64,000 bases of DNA from Thermoflexus hugenholtzii JAD2 (GTDB lineage: Bacteria; Chloroflexota; Anaerolineae; Thermoflexales; Thermoflexaceae): positions 62,001 to 126,000 of the forward strand of contig NZ_FYEK01000075.1 of NCBI RefSeq assembly GCF_900187885.1. The letters are read 5' to 3'. Of this stretch, positions 9,555-21,319 are shown one piece after another. The translations under genes and the position numbers were made by a program. The notes under the pieces were generated by a model. That model did no database searches. It was not told where the DNA came from and saw only the letters and a program-made list of their open reading frames with translations. Each line of letters opens with the position of its first letter. Position 1 is the first letter of the stretch.

Positions 9555-10466
9555 ATGAGAGATCCCGGAGGACATCGAGAGAGAAACGCGCTGCAAGCGG
9601 TGCGACGAGCCCTCCGGGCCTCCTCCCCGGAGGCGGCCCTCTGGTGGACGGCGCAGGCCTACCGGGCCGCCCCCACCCACCCGGCCGTCCGGGCCTTGGT
9701 GCGGCGGATCCGGCGTCGATATCCGAACGCGCGGGGACATCGGCCCATCCACTGGTTCCGCATCGCACTGGCTGGCTATGCCCTTCTGACTCTCAGCGCC
9801 CTGATCGTGATCCTCTACGGTCTGCGGCTGCGCAACCCGCTGGAGCCTCCGGCAACTGTGGATCCCTCCGTGGCGATCGCGGTATCAGAGGAAACCGGGA
9901 TGTCAGAGACGCGCTGGGGAGAAGAACCCGCCCCAGAAATTGCGACGCCGTCCCCTGCCCTCGCAAGTCCGACGCCGACCGCCACCCTTGTTCCCCCAAC
10001 GCCAACCGCGCACGCTTCGCCCGCGGCCTCGCCGACGCGGCGGCCGGTGCCCACCGCAACGCCCCGGCCGCGCCCGACGGCCTCTCCCACCCTCATGCCC
10101 GGTCCACCCTTCCCCGGGCGCTGGATCCTGGTGGATCTCAGCGATCAGGAGCTCATCGCCTACGAAGGGGAGACGCCGATCCTGCGGACGAAGGTCTCCA
10201 CCGGGCGGGCCCGCACGCCCACGGTGGTAGGGGTCTTCCGCATCTATCTCAAGCTGCAGTCGCGGACGATGCGGGGCCCGGACTACCACCTGCCGAACGT
10301 TCCCTACGTGATGTATTTCTACAAAGGCTATGCTCTGCACGGCACCTATTGGCACAACAACTTCGGCCGGCCGATGAGCCACGGCTGCGTCAATCTGCCC
10401 ACGCCGATCGCGGCGCAGCTGTATCAGTGGGCGGACATCGGGACGCCGGTGGTGGTGCAGCCGTGA
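9555..10466 (+). CDS. L,D-transpeptidase (YkuD domain), membrane-anchored
   Basis: 303 residues. A cytoplasmic basic N-terminus (1-68), one TM segment (69-90), a Pro/Thr linker (about 115-175) and a YkuD domain from about 180. The catalytic motif is present: His262 in 'LHGTYWHNN' and S275-H-G-C278-V-N-L. These enzymes form 3-3 cross-links in peptidoglycan or attach proteins to it, outside the membrane. The last 77 bp overlap the convergent SARP gene. Family assignment is firm; the physiological partner is unknown. Confidence 0.9.
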   Translation: MRDPGGHRERNALQAVRRALRASSPEAALWWTAQAYRAAPTHPAVRALVRRIRRRYPNARGHRPIHWFRIALAGYALLTLSALIVILYGLRLRNPLEPPATVDPSVAIAVSEETGMSETRWGEEPAPEIATPSPALASPTPTATLVPPTPTAHASPAASPTRRPVPTATPRPRPTASPTLMPGPPFPGRWILVDLSDQELIAYEGETPILRTKVSTGRARTPTVVGVFRIYLKLQSRTMRGPDYHLPNVPYVMYFYKGYALHGTYWHNNFGRPMSHGCVNLPTPIAAQLYQWADIGTPVVVQP

Positions 10467-12447
10467 GGGCTTCGGAGCGGGGAGCCATCCAGGCAGGTGG
10501 TTCCAGGAACGGCGTCTCCTCCCAGAAGACGCGCCACGCCTCCCATCCCATCCGCATCAGGAGGCGCTCCGCCTCCGAACGGGCCACAGGGGTCCATCGC
10601 CGGCGGAGGGCCATGGCCAGCAGCCGGAGGTCATCCCGACCCCAGCGTCGCGATCCCTGTAGGGCGCGCCGCCCCCAGCGGCGGGCCTCCGCGACATCGC
10701 CCCGGGCGCGCGCCGCCAGGGCGAGGACCAGAGCCGCCCGCGGGCCCTCGAAGCCGTCGCCGGCGATGGGCCAAAGGGTCTTCAGCCGATCGATCCAGCG
10801 CGCGCAAGCCGTTGGATCCCCGGTCCGCAGATAGATCCGGGCCGCCCCCGCGGCCATCCAGAGGGCGGCATCGAGATCCCGCTCCGCTTCCGCCCTCCGA
10901 TAAAGGGCCTCGATCTCCTCCTCCCAGGCCGGGGAAGGCCCCTCCGCCCACCCGCGGAACAGCGTCCAGTTCCCACGGATCCGAACGCCGAGGAGGCCGC
11001 AGCGCTCATCCTCTTCGAGGAGCGCCCACGCCGTCTCCAGAGACCGGAGGGCCCCCGGGTAGTCCCCCAGATGGCGTAGCGCCACCGCCAGGCCGTTCAG
11101 CGTGGCGGCCCGATGGACGGCCGGGGCGTCCTCGGGCAGCTGCGCAAGGGCGGTCTGGAGATGCCCGCGGGCAGCCGGGAACCAGCCCCGGCGCAGCGCC
11201 GTCAGCCCCCGCAGCCGTCGCAACAGGGCGCGGTGAAGGGGATCCAGGGGAAGAGCGACCTCCGCGGCGGCGAGGAGCCGTTCGGCGGCGGCCGGGCGCC
11301 CCCGCTGGAGCTCCAGATAGCTCAGGCAGGCGACGGCCTCCGCCCGACGCGTTGGATCCCCCATGCGGCGGGCGAGGCGGAGCATCGCCCGCAGGTTGGC
11401 CGCTTGGCGGGCCCGATCCCCCTCGAAATCCGCAACGGCATCCACGGCGCACCGCGCCCGCCAGGCCCACTCCACCGGCGTGTGTGGAGTCAACAACGCC
11501 AGGGCCGCCACCGCCCAGGGGGCCGCCTCCCGGTAAGCGCCGCGGGCCAGGGCCTCCTCCGCCGTTTGCACCAGGCCCTCCAGGAGGGCCTGACGGAGAG
11601 GCTCCACGGGGAAGGCAGGCGCCTCCCAGGCGAGCGTTTCCAAGGCTTGTAGCAAGCGACCCAGCGGGGCCGGCGGACGGATCCGCCATGGAGGCGCGAA
11701 CGCGACGTCCAGATCCATGGGGACCCCTTGGGATCGGCAGGCCCATTGATACCGTTGCCCGATGCGGCGCGCCGCTTCAAGGTCCCCGCGCGCCTCCGCC
11801 TGGCGGATCAGGAAGCGGACGACCTCCGCGCGGGTGGGCTCCTCCCGGAACAGGCGCTCCGCCCAGCGTTCCGCCTCCGGCAGGTCGCCCATCTTCTCTG
11901 CCAGGCGCCACAGGCGGGCGAGGGCTTCCAGGAATTGCTCGCGCAGCGCCTGTCGCCAGCCGACCACCCACGGGGCTTCCCAGTCCGGGAGCAGGTCTCC
12001 GGTGTAGAGGGCGACGGCGGCCTCCAGGGCCGCCCGGGCCTGCAACGGAGGAGCCCCTCGCGCCCGCTGTAGGAGCCCCGCGAAGGCGTGGACGTCCGTC
12101 CACCACGGCGTCGAAGGGGCGAAGGCGATGCGGGCCCGGTCGACCCGCAGGGGGAACCGGAGCCCGCGGAACAGGCGGCGAAGGCGATAGAGGGCCGCGC
12201 GCAGGGCGCCCTGAGCCTGCTCCGGCGCGAGATCCGGCCACAACGTCTCCGCCAGGGCGGACCGGGAGAACGCGCGGAAGGGGTGGAGGGCCAGGAACGC
12301 GAGGAGCGCCCCCGTGCGGGGCTGCCGGGCCAGCTCCGGAAGCGGGCGGCCCCGGCCCTCCACCTCCAGGCCCCCGAACAGACAAAGACGCAGGGCCGGG
12401 CGGGCGAAGACCGGCCCGCCGGCCTCATCGAAAGCGGAAGGGATCAT
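10390..12447 (-). CDS. SARP-type transcriptional regulator (winged helix + BTAD + TPR-like repeats)
   Basis: A 685-residue protein. Residues ~15-105 form an OmpR/SARP winged helix ('LRLCLFGGLEVEGRG', 'RSALAETLWPDLAPEQAQGA'). A bacterial transcriptional activation domain follows ('ALYTGDLLPDWEAPWV'), then a long helical TPR-like C-terminal half. It lacks an NB-ARC ATPase, so it is a mid-sized SARP. The start at 12447 has a strong ribosome site; in-frame ATGs further upstream are disfavoured. It is divergent from a LuxR-type gene, and heptameric direct repeats lie between them. SARPs usually activate accessory or secretory gene sets; the target here is unknown. Confidence 0.85.
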   Translation of the reverse strand: MIPSAFDEAGGPVFARPALRLCLFGGLEVEGRGRPLPELARQPRTGALLAFLALHPFRAFSRSALAETLWPDLAPEQAQGALRAALYRLRRLFRGLRFPLRVDRARIAFAPSTPWWTDVHAFAGLLQRARGAPPLQARAALEAAVALYTGDLLPDWEAPWVVGWRQALREQFLEALARLWRLAEKMGDLPEAERWAERLFREEPTRAEVVRFLIRQAEARGDLEAARRIGQRYQWACRSQGVPMDLDVAFAPPWRIRPPAPLGRLLQALETLAWEAPAFPVEPLRQALLEGLVQTAEEALARGAYREAAPWAVAALALLTPHTPVEWAWRARCAVDAVADFEGDRARQAANLRAMLRLARRMGDPTRRAEAVACLSYLELQRGRPAAAERLLAAAEVALPLDPLHRALLRRLRGLTALRRGWFPAARGHLQTALAQLPEDAPAVHRAATLNGLAVALRHLGDYPGALRSLETAWALLEEDERCGLLGVRIRGNWTLFRGWAEGPSPAWEEEIEALYRRAEAERDLDAALWMAAGAARIYLRTGDPTACARWIDRLKTLWPIAGDGFEGPRAALVLALAARARGDVAEARRWGRRALQGSRRWGRDDLRLLAMALRRRWTPVARSEAERLLMRMGWEAWRVFWEETPFLEPPAWMAPRSEALTAAPPPASRCPPTDTAAPRSAWAD

Positions 12448-12527
12448 CTCCCACCTCCCCTCCCCCTGGGTCCACGCCATTCTCCAAAACTTCACGGAGA
12501 ATTCTAACACACCGGGGCCGGGTTTTG

Positions 12528-12545
12528 TCACGATCTTATCACGAT
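12528..12545 (+). promoter_or_regulatory. heptamer direct repeats, possible SARP operator
   Basis: TCACGAT-CTTA-TCACGAT: two identical heptamers with a 4-bp spacer, an 11-bp period. This is the geometry on which SARP proteins bind. The pair sits in the 158-bp region between the divergent SARP and LuxR-type genes. A second direct repeat, CACGGAGAAT, flanks it (12493-12502 and 12549-12558). Binding is inferred. Confidence 0.45.
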
Positions 12546-12631
12546 CGGCACGGAGAATCGGAAGAGAGACCCCCCACCACAAGGCGGCTCACGGGGTATT
12601 TCATATGGGAAGCAACAACGAGGAGGATCAG

Positions 12632-13392
12632 GTGGTCGTCGGGATCGCGGAGCCCTGCCCCCTGCGTCGGGAAGCCCTCCGGAGGGCGCTGCGGGCGTTG
12701 GGATGCCCGGACCTTCGGGAGTTGCCGCTTCCGCTGGCCGGCCCGGGATGGCGCGAGGGGGAAGAGGACCTCGAGGTGGTGCTCCTGGCCTTCCGGGTGC
12801 CGGCCGGCAACGGGCTGGGCCTCTACGCCGCCCTCCGACGCGCCCACCGGCCCGTGCGGGGCGTGGTCCTGGTGGAGGATCCGGGTCCGCCCCACTGGGG
12901 GCTGGCTGGGCGGCTGGGCCTTGCGGTGCTGGCCTATTCCGAGGCCGCCGGGGAAGTCCTTCGCCGGGCGGTGCGGGGGCAGTGGGCGATGTCCCCGGCG
13001 GCCCGGAGCGCCGGGGCGGCGTGGTGGGCGGGATGGGGTGCCCGCTGGGAGGGGTTGAGCCGGATGCAGCGGGCCATCGCCTGGGGATCGCCCGCGGCTG
13101 GAGCGACCCGGAGATCGCCCAGGCCCTCTCGATCCGCCGGAGCGCGCTGCGCACCCACCTCCGACGCCTGTTCGCCCGCCTGGGACTCCCCGGCCGACAG
13201 GCCCTGCGGGCGTGGCTGCGAGCCGGGGGGCTGGAGGACCCGGCGGTGGCAGCCGGGCTTCGGGGGGAAGCGCCCTGGCCGCCCGTGGCAGGGGATCCCG
13301 ATGGCCGTGCGATGTCCCCCCTTTTGGAGGACACCGCCCGAATTTGTCCTCCTTTTTGGAGGACCACGGCTTCCGCTGGCTGGATAGGATGA
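12632..13392 (+). CDS. LuxR-type response-regulator-like protein, frame broken once as given
   Basis: The N-terminal part reads like a degenerate receiver domain ('VVVGIAEPCPLRREALRRAL'). The C-terminus is a clear LuxR helix-turn-helix ('SDPEIAQALSIRRSALRTHL', then 'RRLFARLGL'). The two lie in different frames. Adding one G to the G4 run at 13083-13086 joins them as '..MQRAIAWGIARGWSDPEI..' and gives about 253 residues. So this is a one-base loss or a sequence error rather than an old pseudogene. The GTG at 12632 follows GAGGAGG at good spacing; an ATG at 12605 is the alternative. It is divergent from the SARP gene. Confidence 0.6.
13314..13364 (+). other. two near-identical hairpins at the 3' end of the LuxR-type gene
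   Basis: GTCCTCC-TTTTT-GGAGGAC (13346-13364) is a perfect 7-bp stem. A sister copy with one mismatch, GTCCCCC(C)-TTTT-GGAGGAC, lies at 13314-13332. Both are inside the last codons of the repaired gene. Without a following T run they are poor intrinsic terminators; a small repeat is the other reading. Confidence 0.4.
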
Positions 13393-13438
13393 AAACCGAA
13401 AGCCGACCCGCGAGCGGAGGGGAAGCGAGGAGCGAACG

Positions 13439-13546
13439 ATGGCTACTCTACGATGCGGATGCTCGGTGTGCGCCGCCCTGGCCCGGGAGGTGGAAGCCCG
13501 CAACCACGGATGGCTGAAAACGCACTCACTGCGATATCATGAGTAG
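13439..13546 (+). CDS. possible small Cys-containing protein
   Basis: A 35-codon ORF (M-A-T-L-R-C-G-C-S-V-C...) preceded by AGGAG at correct spacing. Three cysteines in CxCxxC form suggest metal binding. It sits between the LuxR-type gene and the IS1182-like element, whose left end begins about 20 bp after its stop, so it could be the remnant of a longer gene. Little can be said beyond this. Confidence 0.3.
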   Translation: MATLRCGCSVCAALAREVEARNHGWLKTHSLRYHE

Positions 13547-13567
13547 CTCAATGATAGAAAAACATGA

Positions 13568-15456
13568 ATGAGTTCACTGCAAAAATGGTAAGGTTCTGAT
13601 CCGAGTATGTTCGCGCAAACGGGTGAATTCTAGTATAATTTTGGAAAACCCTACCGGAGGAGAACGGAATGTTCCGAAAGAACACCCGTCACCGGCAAAT
13701 CCCTCTGACCCGCCCCGTGGATGAACGGCCCGCTCCCCTGCAAGAGCGATGGCAGAACTCCTGGGCGGAGACCTTCTATCGGGACTTCTTTTGCCGCCTG
13801 GACGAGCAACCCTTTGCCGTCCTCTATGCGGACCAGCCCTCCCGCCCCAACGTGCCGGTGAATGTTCGGGTCGGCCTGGAGTTTCGGAAAGCCGCCAACG
13901 GCTGGACCGACAAGGGGACGAGGAGATGTACAACGAGTTCTGCTATAACGTCCAGGTGCGCTAGGCCCTGGGGTGCCCTCATCCGGGCGAAGGGCGCTTT
14001 GACCTGCGCACCCTTTACTACTTCCGCGAGCGGCTGGCCCGCCATATGCAGGAGACGGGTGAGAACCTGCCGGAGCAGGCCTTTGAGCCGGTCACCGATG
14101 AACAACTGGGGGCGTTCTCCCGCAAGACCGGCCAGCAGCGAATGGATCGCACCCGGCTGGCTTCCAACATCCGCCAGATGGGACGGGTGCAACGGCTGGT
14201 GACCGTCTTGCAGCGGGTCTGGCGGATGCTCTCGGAAGAGGACCAGCCGCGCTATGCCGACCTCTTCGCCCCCTATCTGAAGGGGCACGCCGGGCAATAT
14301 GTCTATCGGCTGAAGAAAGAAGACCTGCCCATCCACCTGCAGCGCATCGGCGAGGAGATGCGCCGCCTGCTGACGGAATTGGAGGCGGTCTACGGCGATC
14401 CGCCCACCTATCACGTCCTGGCGCGGGTCTTCGCCGAGCATTTCCGCCTGGAACCGGAAGGACTGCAGGTCAAGGAGGCCGGCGAACGGAGCGCCAGCAA
14501 TCTGCCGTCGCCGGATGACCTGGAAGCGACCTATCGGGAGAAACGGGGGCAGGGCCATCGCGGCTATGTAGTCAACCTGGCCGAGACCTGCGATCCCGAG
14601 AACCCGGTGCAATGGATCACCCAGGTGCAGGTGGCACCGAACACCACGGACGACAGCGCCCTGCTGGCCGAGGCCCTCCCCGACCTGAAAGCCCGCCCCG
14701 GGGTGGATACGGTCTTCACCGATGGCAGTTATGGGAGTCCCAAGAATGATGCCCTGCTGGCGGAACATCAGGTCACCTTGATCCAGACGGCGATTCGGGG
14801 CCGGCCGCAGGATCCGGAGCGGTTCTACCGGGAGGATTTCCGAGTCCAGGCGGATGCATCGGGCCAGCCGGAGCAGGTCACCTGCCCGAAGTGGGGAGTC
14901 GGCCCGGGTGAGCGCCTCTCTTTCGGGCGAGGCCTTTCTGGCGGTCTTTGGGCCAGTCTGCGCCACCTGTGCCGGGCGGGATTGTTGCCTGGTGGCCCAG
15001 CGGAAACGGTCGGGAGCGTGGGTCTTGCGCTTCACGACCGAAGCGTTGCAGCGGGCGGAGCGTCGGCGTCGGTCCCGCCAGCATCGGGAGAGTGGGCGGA
15101 ACCTGCGGGCGGCGGTGGAATCCACGGTGCGCGGTGTGAAACATCCCTTTGCGGGAGGGAAAGCCCCGGTGCGGGGCCGCTTCCGGGTGACCTGTATGGT
15201 CATTGGGTCAGCGGCGGTGGTCAATGTCGGGCGGTTGCACCGCTTCTGGCAGGCCAGCGTGCGGCTACTGCAGGCGAAAAGGGGGCCGGAGGGAGGGCAG
15301 AAGCGGCAGCCAGGACGGGTGGAACCGCCGGGGTGTTCTTCTGTGTTTTCTTTCGTCAGGGCGATTCGGGCGCTGCGATGGCGATTCCTGGCCCTCCAGC
15401 CGTTTCAACGCCCGGCATTGGGTTGGTAAAGTTCGGACTTTTTGCAGAGGACTCAT
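13568..15456 (+). mobile_element. IS1182-like insertion sequence, 1889 bp
   Basis: Bounded by 18-bp terminal inverted repeats that match at 16 of 18 positions: left ATGAGTTCACTGCAAAAA (13568-13585); right end 15439-15456, whose complement reads ATGAGTCCTCTGCAAAAA. Size and gene content fit the IS1182 family. No target duplication is evident (left flank AACATGA, right flank AACCTTA), which suggests an old insertion or a later rearrangement. The element marks the left border of a low-GC accessory segment. Confidence 0.8.
13669..15429 (+). pseudogene. IS1182-family transposase (broken)
   Basis: Family features: N-terminal 'MFRKNTRHRQIPLT', an N-terminal DUF772-like part, 'GVDTVFTDGSYGSP' with a DDE aspartate, and a Cys-containing C-terminal part 'FGPVCATCAGRDCCLVAQRK'. 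The frame is broken three times. A shift near 13914-13917 is repaired by one more G in a G4 run. A TAG occurs at 13963-13965 where 'QVRYALG' would be expected. A second shift lies near 14885, where one extra A fits. As given it cannot make active transposase. Confidence 0.8.
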
Positions 15457-15491
15457 AACCTTAATGCCAACTTCATCAAAGGAGGTGCAAA

Positions 15492-16268
15492 ATGCGCGAG
15501 CCATATATTATCGCCTTGATGGTTATAATTCTCGTGCTGACAGTCGCTCCACCGGAGACTGTGGGGTCAATCTCATTAGAACAAAATGTTGATCAAATCG
15601 ATAAAGCGCTAATGAATTTGACCCCTTATGTCCGCTTTGCTGATGACGGGATCGCAGTCTTTGATATGAACTCTGCTAAACAAGCTGGTTTCTCGGAATC
15701 CGTCATCCTTTTAGCAGAGGAGATGGTAGCCTTCCACAATGAGTTAGTCAAGGTAGCATCCCTTGAAAAAGTGACAGATGTACGAATGATACCAGTAGCT
15801 CTCGATCGGTATCCAAGGTTGCGAGAATTGTTTGAGCGGGCTTCTCGTGAAGCCTATTTCCGCCAGGAGTCTAATAATGGCGCCGTCCCCCTCGGACTTC
15901 ACGCTTGTGGGACTTACAGCAATCCTGTGCCCAACTACACACCGCCTCGATCCACATTCGGTCCGTATGCTGATCCAGCAGGGACCCTGATTAGTTGGGG
16001 GTTTCATCACACGGCGTGGTATGCCTGTGGGCAGTTACCCCCATACGACTGTCCCAACGACTTTACCAGGGACAGGGGATATTACGGGCCATATGGCTAT
16101 TGTTGGTCACCCTGTTTCCGCGATCAAGGACGTACCACGAGTGGAAGCTCATATTTTACCATCCAATATGGAGAACCTAATCCTGAGGTTTACAAGAGCT
16201 CATGGCCTTCGTGGTGGCCATATTGGTATTGGGACACATATGTTTTCTGGTGGCACTTGACATATTAG
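15492..16268 (+). CDS. secreted Tyr/Trp/Cys-rich protein of unknown function
   Basis: 258 residues with a strong ribosome site (AAAGGAGGTGC) and a signal peptide ('YIIALMVIILVLTVAPPETVGS'). Residues 30-130 look helical. The last 120 residues are rich in Tyr, Trp, Pro and Gly with five cysteines ('GLHACGTYSNPVPNYTPP', 'YGYCWSPCF'), ending in an aromatic tail ('SSWPSWWPYWYWDTYVFWWH'). GC content is visibly far lower than the surroundings, which points to recent transfer. It starts 36 bp after the IS1182-like element. I do not recognise the family; an extracellular toxin-like or surface protein is a guess. Confidence 0.7.
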   Translation: MREPYIIALMVIILVLTVAPPETVGSISLEQNVDQIDKALMNLTPYVRFADDGIAVFDMNSAKQAGFSESVILLAEEMVAFHNELVKVASLEKVTDVRMIPVALDRYPRLRELFERASREAYFRQESNNGAVPLGLHACGTYSNPVPNYTPPRSTFGPYADPAGTLISWGFHHTAWYACGQLPPYDCPNDFTRDRGYYGPYGYCWSPCFRDQGRTTSGSSYFTIQYGEPNPEVYKSSWPSWWPYWYWDTYVFWWHLTY

Positions 16269-18041: not shown

Positions 18042-18314
18042 TCTGCGTGTGGAAATCATCGATGGCTCCTCTTAAGCGCGACATGGATGGATAACTCCGG
18101 AAGCCATCCGATTTCAGGATGGTATTGGGTCCCATCTATGTGCAATCCAAGTGACTTTTGTGTGGCTTATCGAAGCGATCAGGATTTCTATCTGTGGGGA
18201 ACAACTATTTATGGGGATTTTTATAGTCGAACATATTTTGGGATGGGATGTTTTCCTAATGTGGGTCCGGCACGTGGTCTCCGTGTTTATCCCTAACAGA
18301 CCGAGGAGGTGGAT

Positions 18315-19040
18315 ATGCACAAGGGACGATGGCTTCTTTTGGTGGGGATCGGGTTGTTGCTGAGCGTAGGGCGCGGGGCGGCTCCCTCCAATCCATCGGC
18401 TCCCATCCGGCTCACAGCCGCCCTGGCAAAGATCACCATCCCCATGGCCTCCCCGCTTCTATGGGCTCCGATCCCCTCGGATCGAAAAGGGGACTCTACC
18501 CCTATCGTCTGGGTGAACGGCCAGCCGATTCCTTACGAGGCCTGGGCGTTCGCCGTCGAGCCAATGCACGCGGCAGGGGTTCCCAATCCCGCAGGCGAGG
18601 CCCTCGCCCTGCTGATCCAGAACACGCTCATACAGCAGGAAGCCCAACGGCAGGGAATGCGCGCTCGTCCAGAGGAGGTGGAAGCCGCTCTCGCCCATAT
18701 GTTTGCAGCCGCGGAGCAGAGTCCAGAGGCGAAGGCGCTGCTCCAAACCCTGGCCCAGCGGCAGGGACTCCGACCGAAGGATCCCGCGTTTCGGGCGATG
18801 ATGGCGCAGGCGCTGGAACGAAGCCTGCCGGTGGCGAAACTCAACGAGGTGCTCCTTCGAGAGAGCGGCGGCGACCCCTGCGCGGCGCATCGACGGCGGG
18901 TTGCCCTGTTGAAGGAGCTCTGGAGCCGGGCGGAGATCCGGCTGGCCCCCCAAGGGGAGGCGCTGGGCCTGCAGGTGCCCCCACCGGAGGAGCTGCCGGA
19001 GGTTCGCAATCCGCCGCCGGGCTGCGAGGCCTCCCGGTGA
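18315..19040 (+). CDS. secreted SurA-N-like protein without PPIase domain
   Basis: 241 residues with ribosome site GAGGAGG, a signal peptide ('WLLLVGIGLLLSVGRGA') and a SurA/PrsA N-terminal-type domain: 'VWVNGQPIPYEAWAFAVE', then 'ALLIQNTLIQQEAQRQGMRA'. The parvulin PPIase domain normally found downstream is absent; the C-terminus is short with a Cys near the end. Its stop overlaps a GTG (GTGA, 19037-19040) that opens the Cys-rich precursor. This implies translational coupling and a dedicated chaperone or secretion role for that precursor. The fold is reasonably sure, the role is inferred. Confidence 0.7.
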   Translation: MHKGRWLLLVGIGLLLSVGRGAAPSNPSAPIRLTAALAKITIPMASPLLWAPIPSDRKGDSTPIVWVNGQPIPYEAWAFAVEPMHAAGVPNPAGEALALLIQNTLIQQEAQRQGMRARPEEVEAALAHMFAAAEQSPEAKALLQTLAQRQGLRPKDPAFRAMMAQALERSLPVAKLNEVLLRESGGDPCAAHRRRVALLKELWSRAEIRLAPQGEALGLQVPPPEELPEVRNPPPGCEASR

Positions 19041-19681
19041 GGCGGAAGCCCCCCTCCGCCGAGATGACCTTTCCCGCGCCGAGTCAGCACTCGGGTCCAT
19101 GCCCTGCAGCGCTTCCAGAACCACCCGGATCTTCAAGCCCTGGGGCTGGCCGTGCCACAAGAGGATGGAGAGTTCCCGATCGTCGTCGCCCACGAACTGG
19201 CCGATGGCAACACCTTGCTGGCGGCAGGCTGGGTTCAGAAACCGAACGAAGTGGTGGTGACGTATGCCTTCGCCAGGGGAAGGCACTGCGCATTCAGAGC
19301 GAAGTGCTGCAGATCGTTGCGGATTCGGATCGGGCCCGGCTGGCGGGGCGGAGCGTGAACGGGCGGGTCACCGCGGGGACCCAGGCGGGGGCAGGAGCCG
19401 GCGTCCAGCCGATGAGCCACTGCGCCGGATGCATCAACTGCTGGACCGGACCGTGGGAGACCGATTGCCAATCTTGCGCCTCATGGAACTACACCTGCCT
19501 GTGGAATTGCTGTGGTTGGCCATGTGGCACAAGCTGCGCAATGTGCGTGATTCGACGAGATCCTTTAGCCTGTGCGATCTGCGTTGCATGCATTGTCGTC
19601 CATTGCCCGCTGTGCGCTTCCGGGTGCTGCCTTCAGTGGGTTCATGACTGCTGCGCATGTGGTCCTTGTCCTGGACCATAA
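19037..19681 (+). CDS. Cys-rich peptide precursor A (22 Cys in last 88 residues), frame broken as given
   Basis: The C-terminal 88 codons (from 19415) are open and extraordinary: 22 cysteines in CxxC-like spacing among Trp, Gly and hydrophobic residues, e.g. 'SHCAGCINCWTGPW' and 'NCCGWPCGTSCAMC'. The upstream part lies in other frames ('ALQRFQNHPDLQALGLAVPQ', 'FPIVVAHELADGNTLLAAGW', then 'ALRIQSEVLQIVADSDRARL'). Adding one base to each of three runs (C6 at 19049, G3 at 19093, G4 at 19276) gives one ORF of about 215 codons from the GTG overlapping the previous stop. It resembles a leader plus Cys-rich core, as in bacteriocin precursors. No export signal is seen. Function inferred. Confidence 0.55.
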   Translation: MRRKPPSAEMTFPAPSQHSGPCPAALPEPPGSSSPGAGRATRGWRVPDRRRPRTGRWQHLAGGRLGSETERSGGDVCLRQGKALRIQSEVLQIVADSDRARLAGRSVNGRVTAGTQAGAGAGVQPMSHCAGCINCWTGPWETDCQSCASWNYTCLWNCCGWPCGTSCAMCVIRRDPLACAICVACIVVHCPLCASGCCLQWVHDCCACGPCPGP

Positions 19682-19700: not shown

Positions 19701-20066
19701 ATGTCCTTTCGCCTGACGGCTCGAAGTCCAGGATGGCGCATGGCTCTGTTGCTTGGGATCTGGGGGAGCGCGCTGGCCTATGCCTTCCTCGGCCCAACAG
19801 GAGATAAAGTGCTGGAAAGCGCAGCAATCGTAGCGCTGGCTGCCCATACGCTGGCGTGGGACGCTCCGGGACGTCGGGTCCGACTCCCGTTGGCTCTGCA
19901 CCTCGGGATCCCTCTGGGGCTCCTCATCTTGGCGGGAGCGCGGGCTCCCAACTGGATCGCTCTGCCCCCCTGGCTGCAGATGGTGGATGGCTTCTGGGTG
20001 GTTGCAGCCCTTGCGACCTACGGGGTCAGCCTTCTGGCGCGCGTTCGCCTCAGGCCCCTGAAGTGA
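19701..20066 (+). CDS. four-TM membrane protein A, partner of precursor A
   Basis: 121 residues, start at 19701 with GGAGG 5 bp upstream, only 19 bp after the Cys-rich precursor. Four hydrophobic segments: 'WRMALLLGIWGSALAYAFL', 'LESAAIVALAAHTLAW', 'ALHLGIPLGLLILAGA' and 'FWVVAALATYGVSLLARV', with a basic C-terminus. Small multi-TM proteins directly after a peptide precursor are typical immunity or transport helpers. The second precursor in this operon is followed by a protein of the same layout. No family recognised. Confidence 0.65.
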   Translation: MSFRLTARSPGWRMALLLGIWGSALAYAFLGPTGDKVLESAAIVALAAHTLAWDAPGRRVRLPLALHLGIPLGLLILAGARAPNWIALPPWLQMVDGFWVVAALATYGVSLLARVRLRPLK

Positions 20067-20158
20067 TCGACCAAAAGCTGTGTGTGGACACATAGCTCCG
20101 TGAGATCTGGCCACGCATCGGCTGTCCGGCCGGCGCCTCCAGAGCTGAGGGGGAGCGG

Positions 20159-20962
20159 GTGTGGGTCTTCACGGATCTCTCGATGCGGGCGCGTCTCGTG
20201 CAGGTCCTGGGCCCGGTGCGGGCCCTGCGGGTGGCCCAGGCGGTGGCCCGGATGGGAGGCCCCGTGCTCGGGGTGGATTGGGGAAGGCGAGATTTCCTCC
20301 GCCGGGCTGGAGGAGCCCTGCTCGGCCTTCTGGCGCTACGAAACCTAAGGGCTCCGCTTCGCTCTGGGACAGCTAGGCCCCCCATCCCTTCCCAATCCCG
20401 GCCGCCCTCCCGCCGACGGGTGCCACGGGGGGAACCGATCGATGAAGCGCTCTTCCGCCGGGCCCAGGCCCAATTCCGCCCGGAGCGCTGGAACGCCGAA
20501 CCCGACTGGAACGAAGTGTGGCTGTATACTTCCGAGCAGGGTTCTGCTCTGGTCACACCACTATCGACATCCGGCCTATCGCATCGCTTCCTGACCGCCC
20601 CAGTCCGCGGGGAGGAGATCCTAGCCCTGTATGTGGCAGAGATCGAATGGCGAGGGGGATCTACAACCAGCGCTCGGATGCGGCTGTATGACCTACGAGC
20701 GAAAGTGTTATTGGACGCTGAACTTGAGAATGGCCGGGCGCGCCGCCAAGCACCGGTTCAGTCCTCCAAGGCACCGGGTCATGCCAAGGACGTGGCACGC
20801 TCAAAGCAGGATGTCTGCTGCAACTGGCTGGCACTGAATTTCTGCATTGATGCGGCCACAATTGAGTGCGTGGGTTGTTGTTTCACAAACCCCGCGCTAT
20901 TTGCTGCCTGGTTAGCCGCCGGAACCGCAGCCTGCTTTGCTGCCAACTGCTGGTTCTGTTAA
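20159..20962 (+). CDS. Tat-exported Cys-rich peptide precursor B
   Basis: 267 residues from GTG 20159 (GAGGGGGAGC upstream). A twin-arginine motif RRDFLRR (43-49) is followed by 'AGGALLGLLALRNL', a classical Tat signal with a 42-residue n-region; later starts at 20183 or 20249 would shorten it. A beta-rich middle ('EEILALYVAEIEWRGG', 'ARMRLYDLRAKVLLDAELEN') leads to a 50-residue tail with nine cysteines among hydrophobic residues ('CCNWLALNFCIDAATIEC' ... 'CFAANCWFC'). Tat signal, long propeptide and Cys-rich hydrophobic core is the architecture of halocin-C8-type bacteriocin precursors. Homology is not claimed; the layout is what is seen. Confidence 0.7.
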   Translation: MWVFTDLSMRARLVQVLGPVRALRVAQAVARMGGPVLGVDWGRRDFLRRAGGALLGLLALRNLRAPLRSGTARPPIPSQSRPPSRRRVPRGEPIDEALFRRAQAQFRPERWNAEPDWNEVWLYTSEQGSALVTPLSTSGLSHRFLTAPVRGEEILALYVAEIEWRGGSTTSARMRLYDLRAKVLLDAELENGRARRQAPVQSSKAPGHAKDVARSKQDVCCNWLALNFCIDAATIECVGCCFTNPALFAAWLAAGTAACFAANCWFC

Positions 20963-20980: not shown

Positions 20981-21319
20981 ATGGACCAGGCCTCGATTCC
21001 CCTTCCCTTGCGGTGGAGTCTTCTCTTGCTGAGCCTCACTCTGGGCGGGATGCTCCTTATGAACGGACTGGCCCTCGGCATCCCGTGGCTTCCTGTGTTC
21101 AGTCTGGCAACCTTCCTGCTGGCGGCGGTTTTCCTTCGATATGGCAATACGCGGATCAGCACCGGCGTGGGGCTGGCCCTGCTGCTGGCCGGATACATCG
21201 GGATGCTAATCGGCGGGCTGCTCCGACAGTTCCAGACGCCGCTGGAAACCGTGGCCATCTTGAGTGTGGGAGTGATGGTCCTGGGCCTGTGGGCGGACTG
21301 CCGCAAGCGATCCCCATGA
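20981..21319 (+). CDS. four-TM membrane protein B, partner of precursor B
   Basis: 112 residues, ATG 20981 after GAGAGGAGG, 18 bp after precursor B. Four TM segments: 'WSLLLLSLTLGGMLLMNGLA', 'FSLATFLLAAVFLRYG', 'GVGLALLLAGYIGMLIGGLL' and 'VAILSVGVMVLGLWADC'. Size and topology mirror the membrane protein after precursor A, though the sequences are not obviously alike. An immunity or export role is inferred from position. Confidence 0.65.
   Translation: MDQASIPLPLRWSLLLLSLTLGGMLLMNGLALGIPWLPVFSLATFLLAAVFLRYGNTRISTGVGLALLLAGYIGMLIGGLLRQFQTPLETVAILSVGVMVLGLWADCRKRSP

Follow-up and report, generated by a model that had tools for sequence, protein, structure and literature searches.

The protein encoded at 20159..20962, here called precursor B, is a trimmed member of a large and apparently undescribed Chloroflexota family in which one leader precedes many different passengers. 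On balance, we favor the view that it is a Tat-exported, bacteriocin-like, Cys-rich precursor with a cognate small membrane protein, encoded just downstream, whose role would be to protect the producing cell or to accompany the product. Coordinates refer to the window, the whole 64,000-nucleotide stretch of Thermoflexus hugenholtzii JAD2 DNA that was analyzed.

Precursor B and its truncated leader

The features of precursor B and the gene that follows it are these:
20159..20962, + strand: precursor B, Tat-type, 267 aa, GTG start, nine-Cys tail (stop codon counted in the coordinates)
20147..20320, + strand: second half of the shared leader (EGERVW..GRRDFLRR..), with a sharp left homology edge at 20147
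20285..20338, + strand: twin-arginine motif RRDFLRR plus a short h-region, residues 43-60
20408..20752, + strand: middle domain, approximately residues 84-198, predicted helix and seven-stranded sheet, possible propeptide or chaperone
20816..20959, + strand: nine-Cys hydrophobic tail, residues 220-267, predicted with low confidence to form a two-helix hairpin
20981..21319, + strand: candidate immunity or partner protein, a small membrane protein of 112 aa with four TM segments, 18 nt 3' of precursor B

A first-pass annotation had picked out the RRDFLRR motif and a cluster of nine cysteines in the last 48 of the 267 residues, and the ORF translation confirms both. The motif occupies residues 43-49 and is followed by the mildly hydrophobic stretch AGGALLGLLAL. 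All nine Cys (9/9) are confined to the C-terminal 48 residues, leaving residues 1-219 free of Cys, a distribution with a probability of ~1e-7 under random placement, and the C-terminus reads CC...CWFC-stop. Orthologues of the passenger occur in three further Thermoflexus genomes (G001, G004, and G006); in their alignment the tail pattern CC...C...C[WY]FC is largely preserved, and the tripeptide PGH, ~12 residues ahead of the CC (206-208 in precursor B), is invariant. The passenger has a dN/dS of 0.36-0.38, and the value of 0.38 obtained against both G004 and G001 indicates that the precursor B protein is under purifying selection.

The separate middle part suspected in the earlier reading also holds up, as a domain conserved in the G001 and G004 orthologues and modeled by AlphaFold with a pLDDT of ~66-79 across its length. 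It has no convincing match in the PDB: the best hits of the precursor B model (PepSY/BLIP-like periplasmic proteins; best E 0.55, Z ≤5.4) are within noise. Scans with NCBIfam and Pfam assigned no family to precursor B, to the neighboring precursor A, or to the TM proteins beside them; no homologue turned up that carries the tail as part of a known enzyme; and relatives of precursor B were absent from the viral contigs and plasmids searched.

DNA homology to the leaders of other family members begins abruptly at 20147, so precursor B lacks the N-terminal half of the leader, including its YDxGCxxC motif. To the right of this edge, the remnant is 73-91% identical by blastn to ~40 leader copies, while blastn found no leader homology to the left of it, and the profile match to precursor B covers leader positions 60-124 only. 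The Shine-Dalgarno-like GAGGGGGAG ahead of the GTG corresponds to the E-G-E-R codons of relatives. Judged from these alignments, the "signal" of precursor B is the surviving second half of a leader of ~110 residues. The earlier description of a textbook Tat signal is thus supported as regards Tat-type export, for which RRxFL is conserved and tatC and tatA are present, and gives way as regards its origin, since the protein carries the cut-down leader of a family whose intact members begin with a thioredoxin-like domain.

The surroundings show further signs of disruption:
19104..19681, + strand: precursor A, multi-Cys, related to the precursors, frameshifted near 19271-19286, without a leader of its own
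19701..20066, + strand: candidate partner, a small membrane protein of 121 aa with 3-4 TM segments, set 22 nt behind precursor A
13211..13516, + strand: first half of another leader copy, preserved as a relic (ATG at 13438, MATLRCGCSVCAALAREVEA..) and ending before an IS transposase

The precursor encoded at L033, which bears the shared leader, aligns with precursor A by tblastn in two frames (frame 2, 58% identity across 132 columns; frame 3, 48% across 56), and the 19701-20066 product is weakly homologous to the ORF behind that same L033 precursor (41% identity over 32 aa, E 1e-4). The leader relic is 92% identical by blastn to L037:1-289 and matches leader profile positions 10-39.

Several other genes lie in this neighborhood. 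Within 10390-15458, the IS1182-like transposase just after the relic seems to be frameshifted too. Upstream of the relic are a LuxR-type regulator (~12605-13370), frameshifted at its HTH, and a large SARP/BTAD-type regulator on the minus strand (10390-12582); LuxR/SARP-like regulators also flank leader genes in other genomes. The ORF at 15492-16268 encodes a 258-aa secreted protein with a C-terminus rich in Trp, Tyr, and Cys, for which NCBIfam and Pfam gave no family and the fetched loci no relative. Immediately upstream of precursor A, 18309-19040 encodes an exported protein with a SurA-like N-terminal domain (PF13624, 2.5e-7), a possible outer-side chaperone for the cluster.

With half its leader missing and its neighbors broken by IS elements and frameshifts, the window copy may be decaying. 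The extreme form of this idea, in which recombination or IS insertion broke the leader and the ORF is open only by chance, draws on the sharp homology edge, the frameshifted precursor A, the nearby IS elements and leader relic, and a dN/dS of 0.69 for the leader remnant against L037. We nevertheless consider it unlikely, given an ORF intact over 267 codons, the low dN/dS of the passenger, and that of the partner gene (0.25), which is under purifying selection. Moreover, the G004 orthologue, too, is missing ~28 residues from the start of the leader while retaining the RR and the passenger, which suggests that short leaders may work; in the G001 orthologue, the leader is complete and the linker is frameshifted. 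The short-leader form may be functional; alternatively, the family may be undergoing rapid turnover.

The leader family and its passengers

Intact leaders run to ~110 residues and consist of a DCC1-like domain of predicted thioredoxin fold (YDxGCxxC) followed by RRx[FL]L, with the RR motif at approximately residue 105-110. The AlphaFold model of an intact leader has a pLDDT of >90 over residues 1-90, and its beta-alpha-beta-alpha-beta-beta-alpha order is that of the thioredoxin fold. Its top PDB fold matches are mostly thioredoxin, glutaredoxin, and GST structures; with a best E of only 0.007 and Z of 5-7, these are supportive, short of conclusive. PF04134 (DCC1-like thiol-disulfide oxidoreductase) matches 21 of 39 leaders at E ≤0.1 (best E 6e-5), with the scores listed for these matches under the curated 27.8-bit cutoff, and the leader profile found no relative among PDB sequences. 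Many matches in the search of relatives covered residues 3-80 only, and the rest of these ORFs was unrelated; an example of this shared N-terminal module is MTERYLLYDSGCSVCAALAREVETRSGGRLGVRSLREPEIQALLDRVRPGWHWEPMLVEIEGERVRVFTGLAMRMRLLQLLGPVRALRVARAVARFGGPVLGVDWGRRDFLRRA (L034).

The leader is present many times per Thermoflexus genome and, by profile search, in further families of both the class and the phylum, including Chloroflexota MAGs; one Symbiobacterium MAG, possibly misbinned, carries it as well. Nucleotide identity between leaders is 83% within one genome regardless of passenger and 78.5% between genomes with the same passenger, against a background of 77.5%, which suggests that the constant part is homogenized or swapped. 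No modifying enzyme was seen to be conserved beside the Thermoflexus leader copies.

Tat-type export of precursor B is supported by several lines of sequence evidence. The genome encodes tatC and two TatA/B-type proteins, the genes that the first-pass annotation had proposed to look for. The RR is retained in nearly all full leaders throughout the phylum, and the motif is conserved across the leaders of other families of the phylum at overall identities of 24-64%. Precursor B itself fits the pattern of a Tat substrate: RRx[F/L]L, then a mild hydrophobic stretch, both conserved in relatives. With TIGR01409, the leaders of 14 of 39 relatives give matches at E ≤1, and the window protein is not called; an outgroup leader copy clears the TAT_signal_seq cutoff (17.3 versus 16.7 bits).

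The same leader fronts unrelated passengers: approximately ten families of hydrophobic Cys-rich tails, a fulvocin-C-related bacteriocin, Cys-poor exoproteins, and metalloproteases. Outside Thermoflexus, hydrophobic Cys-rich tails occur at L096, L098, L101, L104, L114, L119, L122, L125, L127, and L128. The bacteriocin, encoded at L129, matches NF033852 at 107.7 bits (cutoff 35) and is known from a single genome that is listed as 12% contaminated. Cys-poor 'GELWEGFLLLPPGAP' proteins also carry the leader, as do, outside Thermoflexus, Cys-poor 'EGFLLLPEGAP' proteins, TPR/hydrolase-like proteins, and, in this case without the RR motif, a TlpA/redoxin domain. Thermoflexus has further types, including two HEXXH metalloproteases and the Cys-dense L042 product. 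Comparison of the middle domains does not establish a shared ancestry for all of them: only type 2 with L127 (94%) and type 2 with the L119/L098 group (76%) stand out.

A number of loci have peculiarities of their own. L042:580-1839 encodes a leader-bearing protein that is extremely Cys dense, with 24 Cys among its last 60 residues (GCGCSCNCCCGCGLCCGCGC...). At L025, L029, L035, and L038, the leader precedes a conserved 10-Cys tail (CDCAVYQ..CSEC..WIGDLLRQWCCSGNNCWWGN.CGCGNW) with no small TM partner; there, the tail gene is overlapped or followed by a long ORF whose N-terminus resembles an FtsX-like permease, and an ABC ATPase is near. Behind Cys-poor 'GELWEGF' passengers (L022:12440-16783, L030, and L027) lies an ORF for a soluble secreted protein (MAYAYVYAPISGT..) that resembles a degenerate M23 peptidase, a pairing that differs from the Cys-tail/TM pairs. 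At L099, L103, L107, and L110, the DCC1-like domain is joined straight to a TlpA/redoxin domain without RR, beside a PqqE-like radical SAM protein; at L099 and L110, a DCC-RR-TPR/hydrolase-like gene comes after the fusion.

Because Cys-poor and protease-like passengers sit behind the same leader, carrying it is not enough to mark a protein as a bacteriocin. Likewise, several passengers are nearly free of Cys, so Cys chemistry alone cannot explain the leader and the Tat route, although formation of disulfides or a metal center in precursor B ahead of export is plausible. We also considered whether the leader CxxC tracks Cys-rich passengers and rejected the idea: the motif persists ahead of Cys-poor passengers and is disrupted in L101, which has a ten-Cys tail. 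The leader thus does not act strictly as a thiol oxidase of the tail, and a role as a chaperone or export-targeting module fits equally well. It is doubtful, in our estimate, that the DCC1-like domain has turned into a reusable leader acting as an in-cis chaperone or thiol oxidase, with Cys-rich membrane-active peptides being folded and disulfide bonded in the cytoplasm before Tat export and each tail having a dedicated small membrane protein.

The diversity of passengers bears on a broader alternative, in which proteins with this leader would be exported or surface components of a general kind (adhesive, proteolytic, cell wall, or metal binding), with the Cys tail structural or metal binding and the TM protein an anchor or assembly partner instead of an immunity protein. 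Such a reading would accommodate the Cys-poor, HEXXH, and TPR/hydrolase-like passengers, as well as a nonhydrophobic Cys type, GNNCWWGN, kept in four genomes without a TM partner. We judge it improbable nonetheless, for the TM partner tracks hydrophobic Cys tails only, passengers and partners turn over fast in type-specific pairs, as is typical for toxin/immunity systems, and one passenger (L129) belongs to a recognized bacteriocin family.

Small membrane proteins linked to hydrophobic Cys tails

The product of 20981-21319 is homologous to the partners found behind the same type of precursor in G006 (86% identity) and G001 (36% identity, E 6e-10). Across the family, a small downstream ORF with at least two TM segments follows 14 of 17 hydrophobic Cys-tail genes and 1 of 37 other leader genes (Fisher P 3e-9; background, 12/366 ORFs). 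A gene was counted as a hydrophobic Cys-tail gene with ≥6 Cys in its last 60 residues and a mean hydropathy of >0.2, and as having a partner when an ORF with ≥2 TM began within 150 nt downstream; the P value is descriptive, since these criteria were fixed after the first examples had been seen. When passengers were collapsed by hand to independent families, the linkage was 9/10 versus 1/15 (P 5e-5). Two of the three exceptions still precede membrane genes, in one case an ABC-2-type permease with an ATPase and in the other a 3-TM ORF at +175. The partners are small, with 2-4 TM, and homology comparison shows them to be specific to passenger type; one cluster holds several precursor and TM pairs.

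This linkage also speaks to the earlier suggestion that a propeptide between signal and tail confers self-immunity. That suggestion finds no support here, and the tightly linked downstream membrane protein is a better candidate: immunity through the middle domain seems less likely than immunity through this gene. The 20981-21319 product could also be a folding or export helper rather than an immunity protein.

Known systems and a proposed mode of action

The closest parallel is halocin C8, whose Tat-exported precursor ProC8 is matured into the immunity protein HalI and a 76-aa peptide (PMC11509114). Precursor B resembles ProC8 (TIGR04449, NF040679) in its Tat signal, its long propeptide-like domain, and its C-terminal hydrophobic Cys-rich peptide of ~50-76 residues. 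It differs in being bacterial, in having a tail that matches no curated model, in having intact relatives with a DCC1-like domain ahead of the Tat motif, and in being accompanied by a separate small membrane gene as candidate immunity determinant. One could nonetheless suppose a single-gene system of the halocin C8 type, in which the middle domain itself is the immunity protein; its conservation and the order of Tat signal, propeptide, and Cys-rich tail (PMC11509114) would suit this. TIGR04449 matches neither the window protein nor, even at E 10, anything in its own genome, and nearly every such tail has a dedicated linked membrane protein, which ProC8 is not described as needing, so that we hold this possibility to be very unlikely. 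The best TIGR04449 score among relatives is that of L010 (10.9 bits; cutoff, 24), and the C8-like Cys tails of other relatives give weak but correctly placed matches to TIGR04449 or TIGR04450.

The TIGR04450 family, Gram-positive C8-like immunity/bacteriocin fusions, likewise joins an immunity-like domain to a Cys-rich tail. The C-terminus of L114 matches it weakly (9.8 bits; cutoff, 27), the window protein does not match, and nothing among 400 Chloroflexota genomes scored above the cutoff. Matches in G079 and G699, near kinase-like proteins and inside M23-peptidase proteins, were dismissed as chance. We know of no DCC1-like leader in the TIGR04450 family. The fulvocin C-related proteins (NF033852) enter the comparison through L129, where such a passenger follows the same type of leader; their tail is Cys rich, not hydrophobic, and the window protein had no match to NF033852. 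Intact leaders resemble the DCC1-like oxidoreductases (PF04134) in their YDxxCxxC motif and predicted thioredoxin fold and differ in falling below the cutoff wherever a score was obtained and in being fused to a Tat signal and passenger, while the window copy lacks the DCC1-like half altogether. Finally, RiPP precursors of the NHLP/Nif11 type, which combine one conserved enzyme-derived leader with many unrelated, often Cys-rich cores, offer a parallel in organization; the present family has a Tat signal instead of a peptidase/ABC exporter, and its passengers include large folded proteins.

Returning to the bacteriocin-like reading that we favor, we infer the antimicrobial activity, the disulfides, the processing, and the role in immunity from the features described above. 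The leader remnant and its RR motif would direct folded precursor B through Tat, and the middle domain would keep the hydrophobic Cys tail safe or able to fold. This tail would be the active part, probably stabilized by disulfides and likely freed by proteolysis around the conserved PGH, after which it may attack the membranes of close competitors. Its mode of action would then be like that of halocin C8, with a separate immunity or partner protein. Precursor B would be one of many precursors, spread over genus and phylum, that join a constant leader, made up of a DCC1-like domain and a Tat signal, to interchangeable passengers.

We regard a leader of predicted thioredoxin fold common to interchangeable Tat passengers as the main novelty of this work. 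The open-access literature searched contained no description of the DCC-leader/Tat/passenger architecture; as such a search reaches only a minority of subscription papers, its outcome is weak evidence that the architecture is new. What these results point to is a phylum-wide, apparently undescribed set of Tat precursors that share a constant leader and differ in their passengers, many of them bacteriocin-like, with each hydrophobic Cys-rich tail paired with its own small membrane protein. If this is correct, the Chloroflexota would be a source of heat-stable, disulfide-rich antimicrobial candidates. The family would also provide a test case for how Tat handles prefolded Cys-rich cargo behind a thioredoxin-like domain. 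Should the leader prove to be an in-cis oxidase or chaperone, it would be the constant part of a polymorphic Chloroflexota secretion system.
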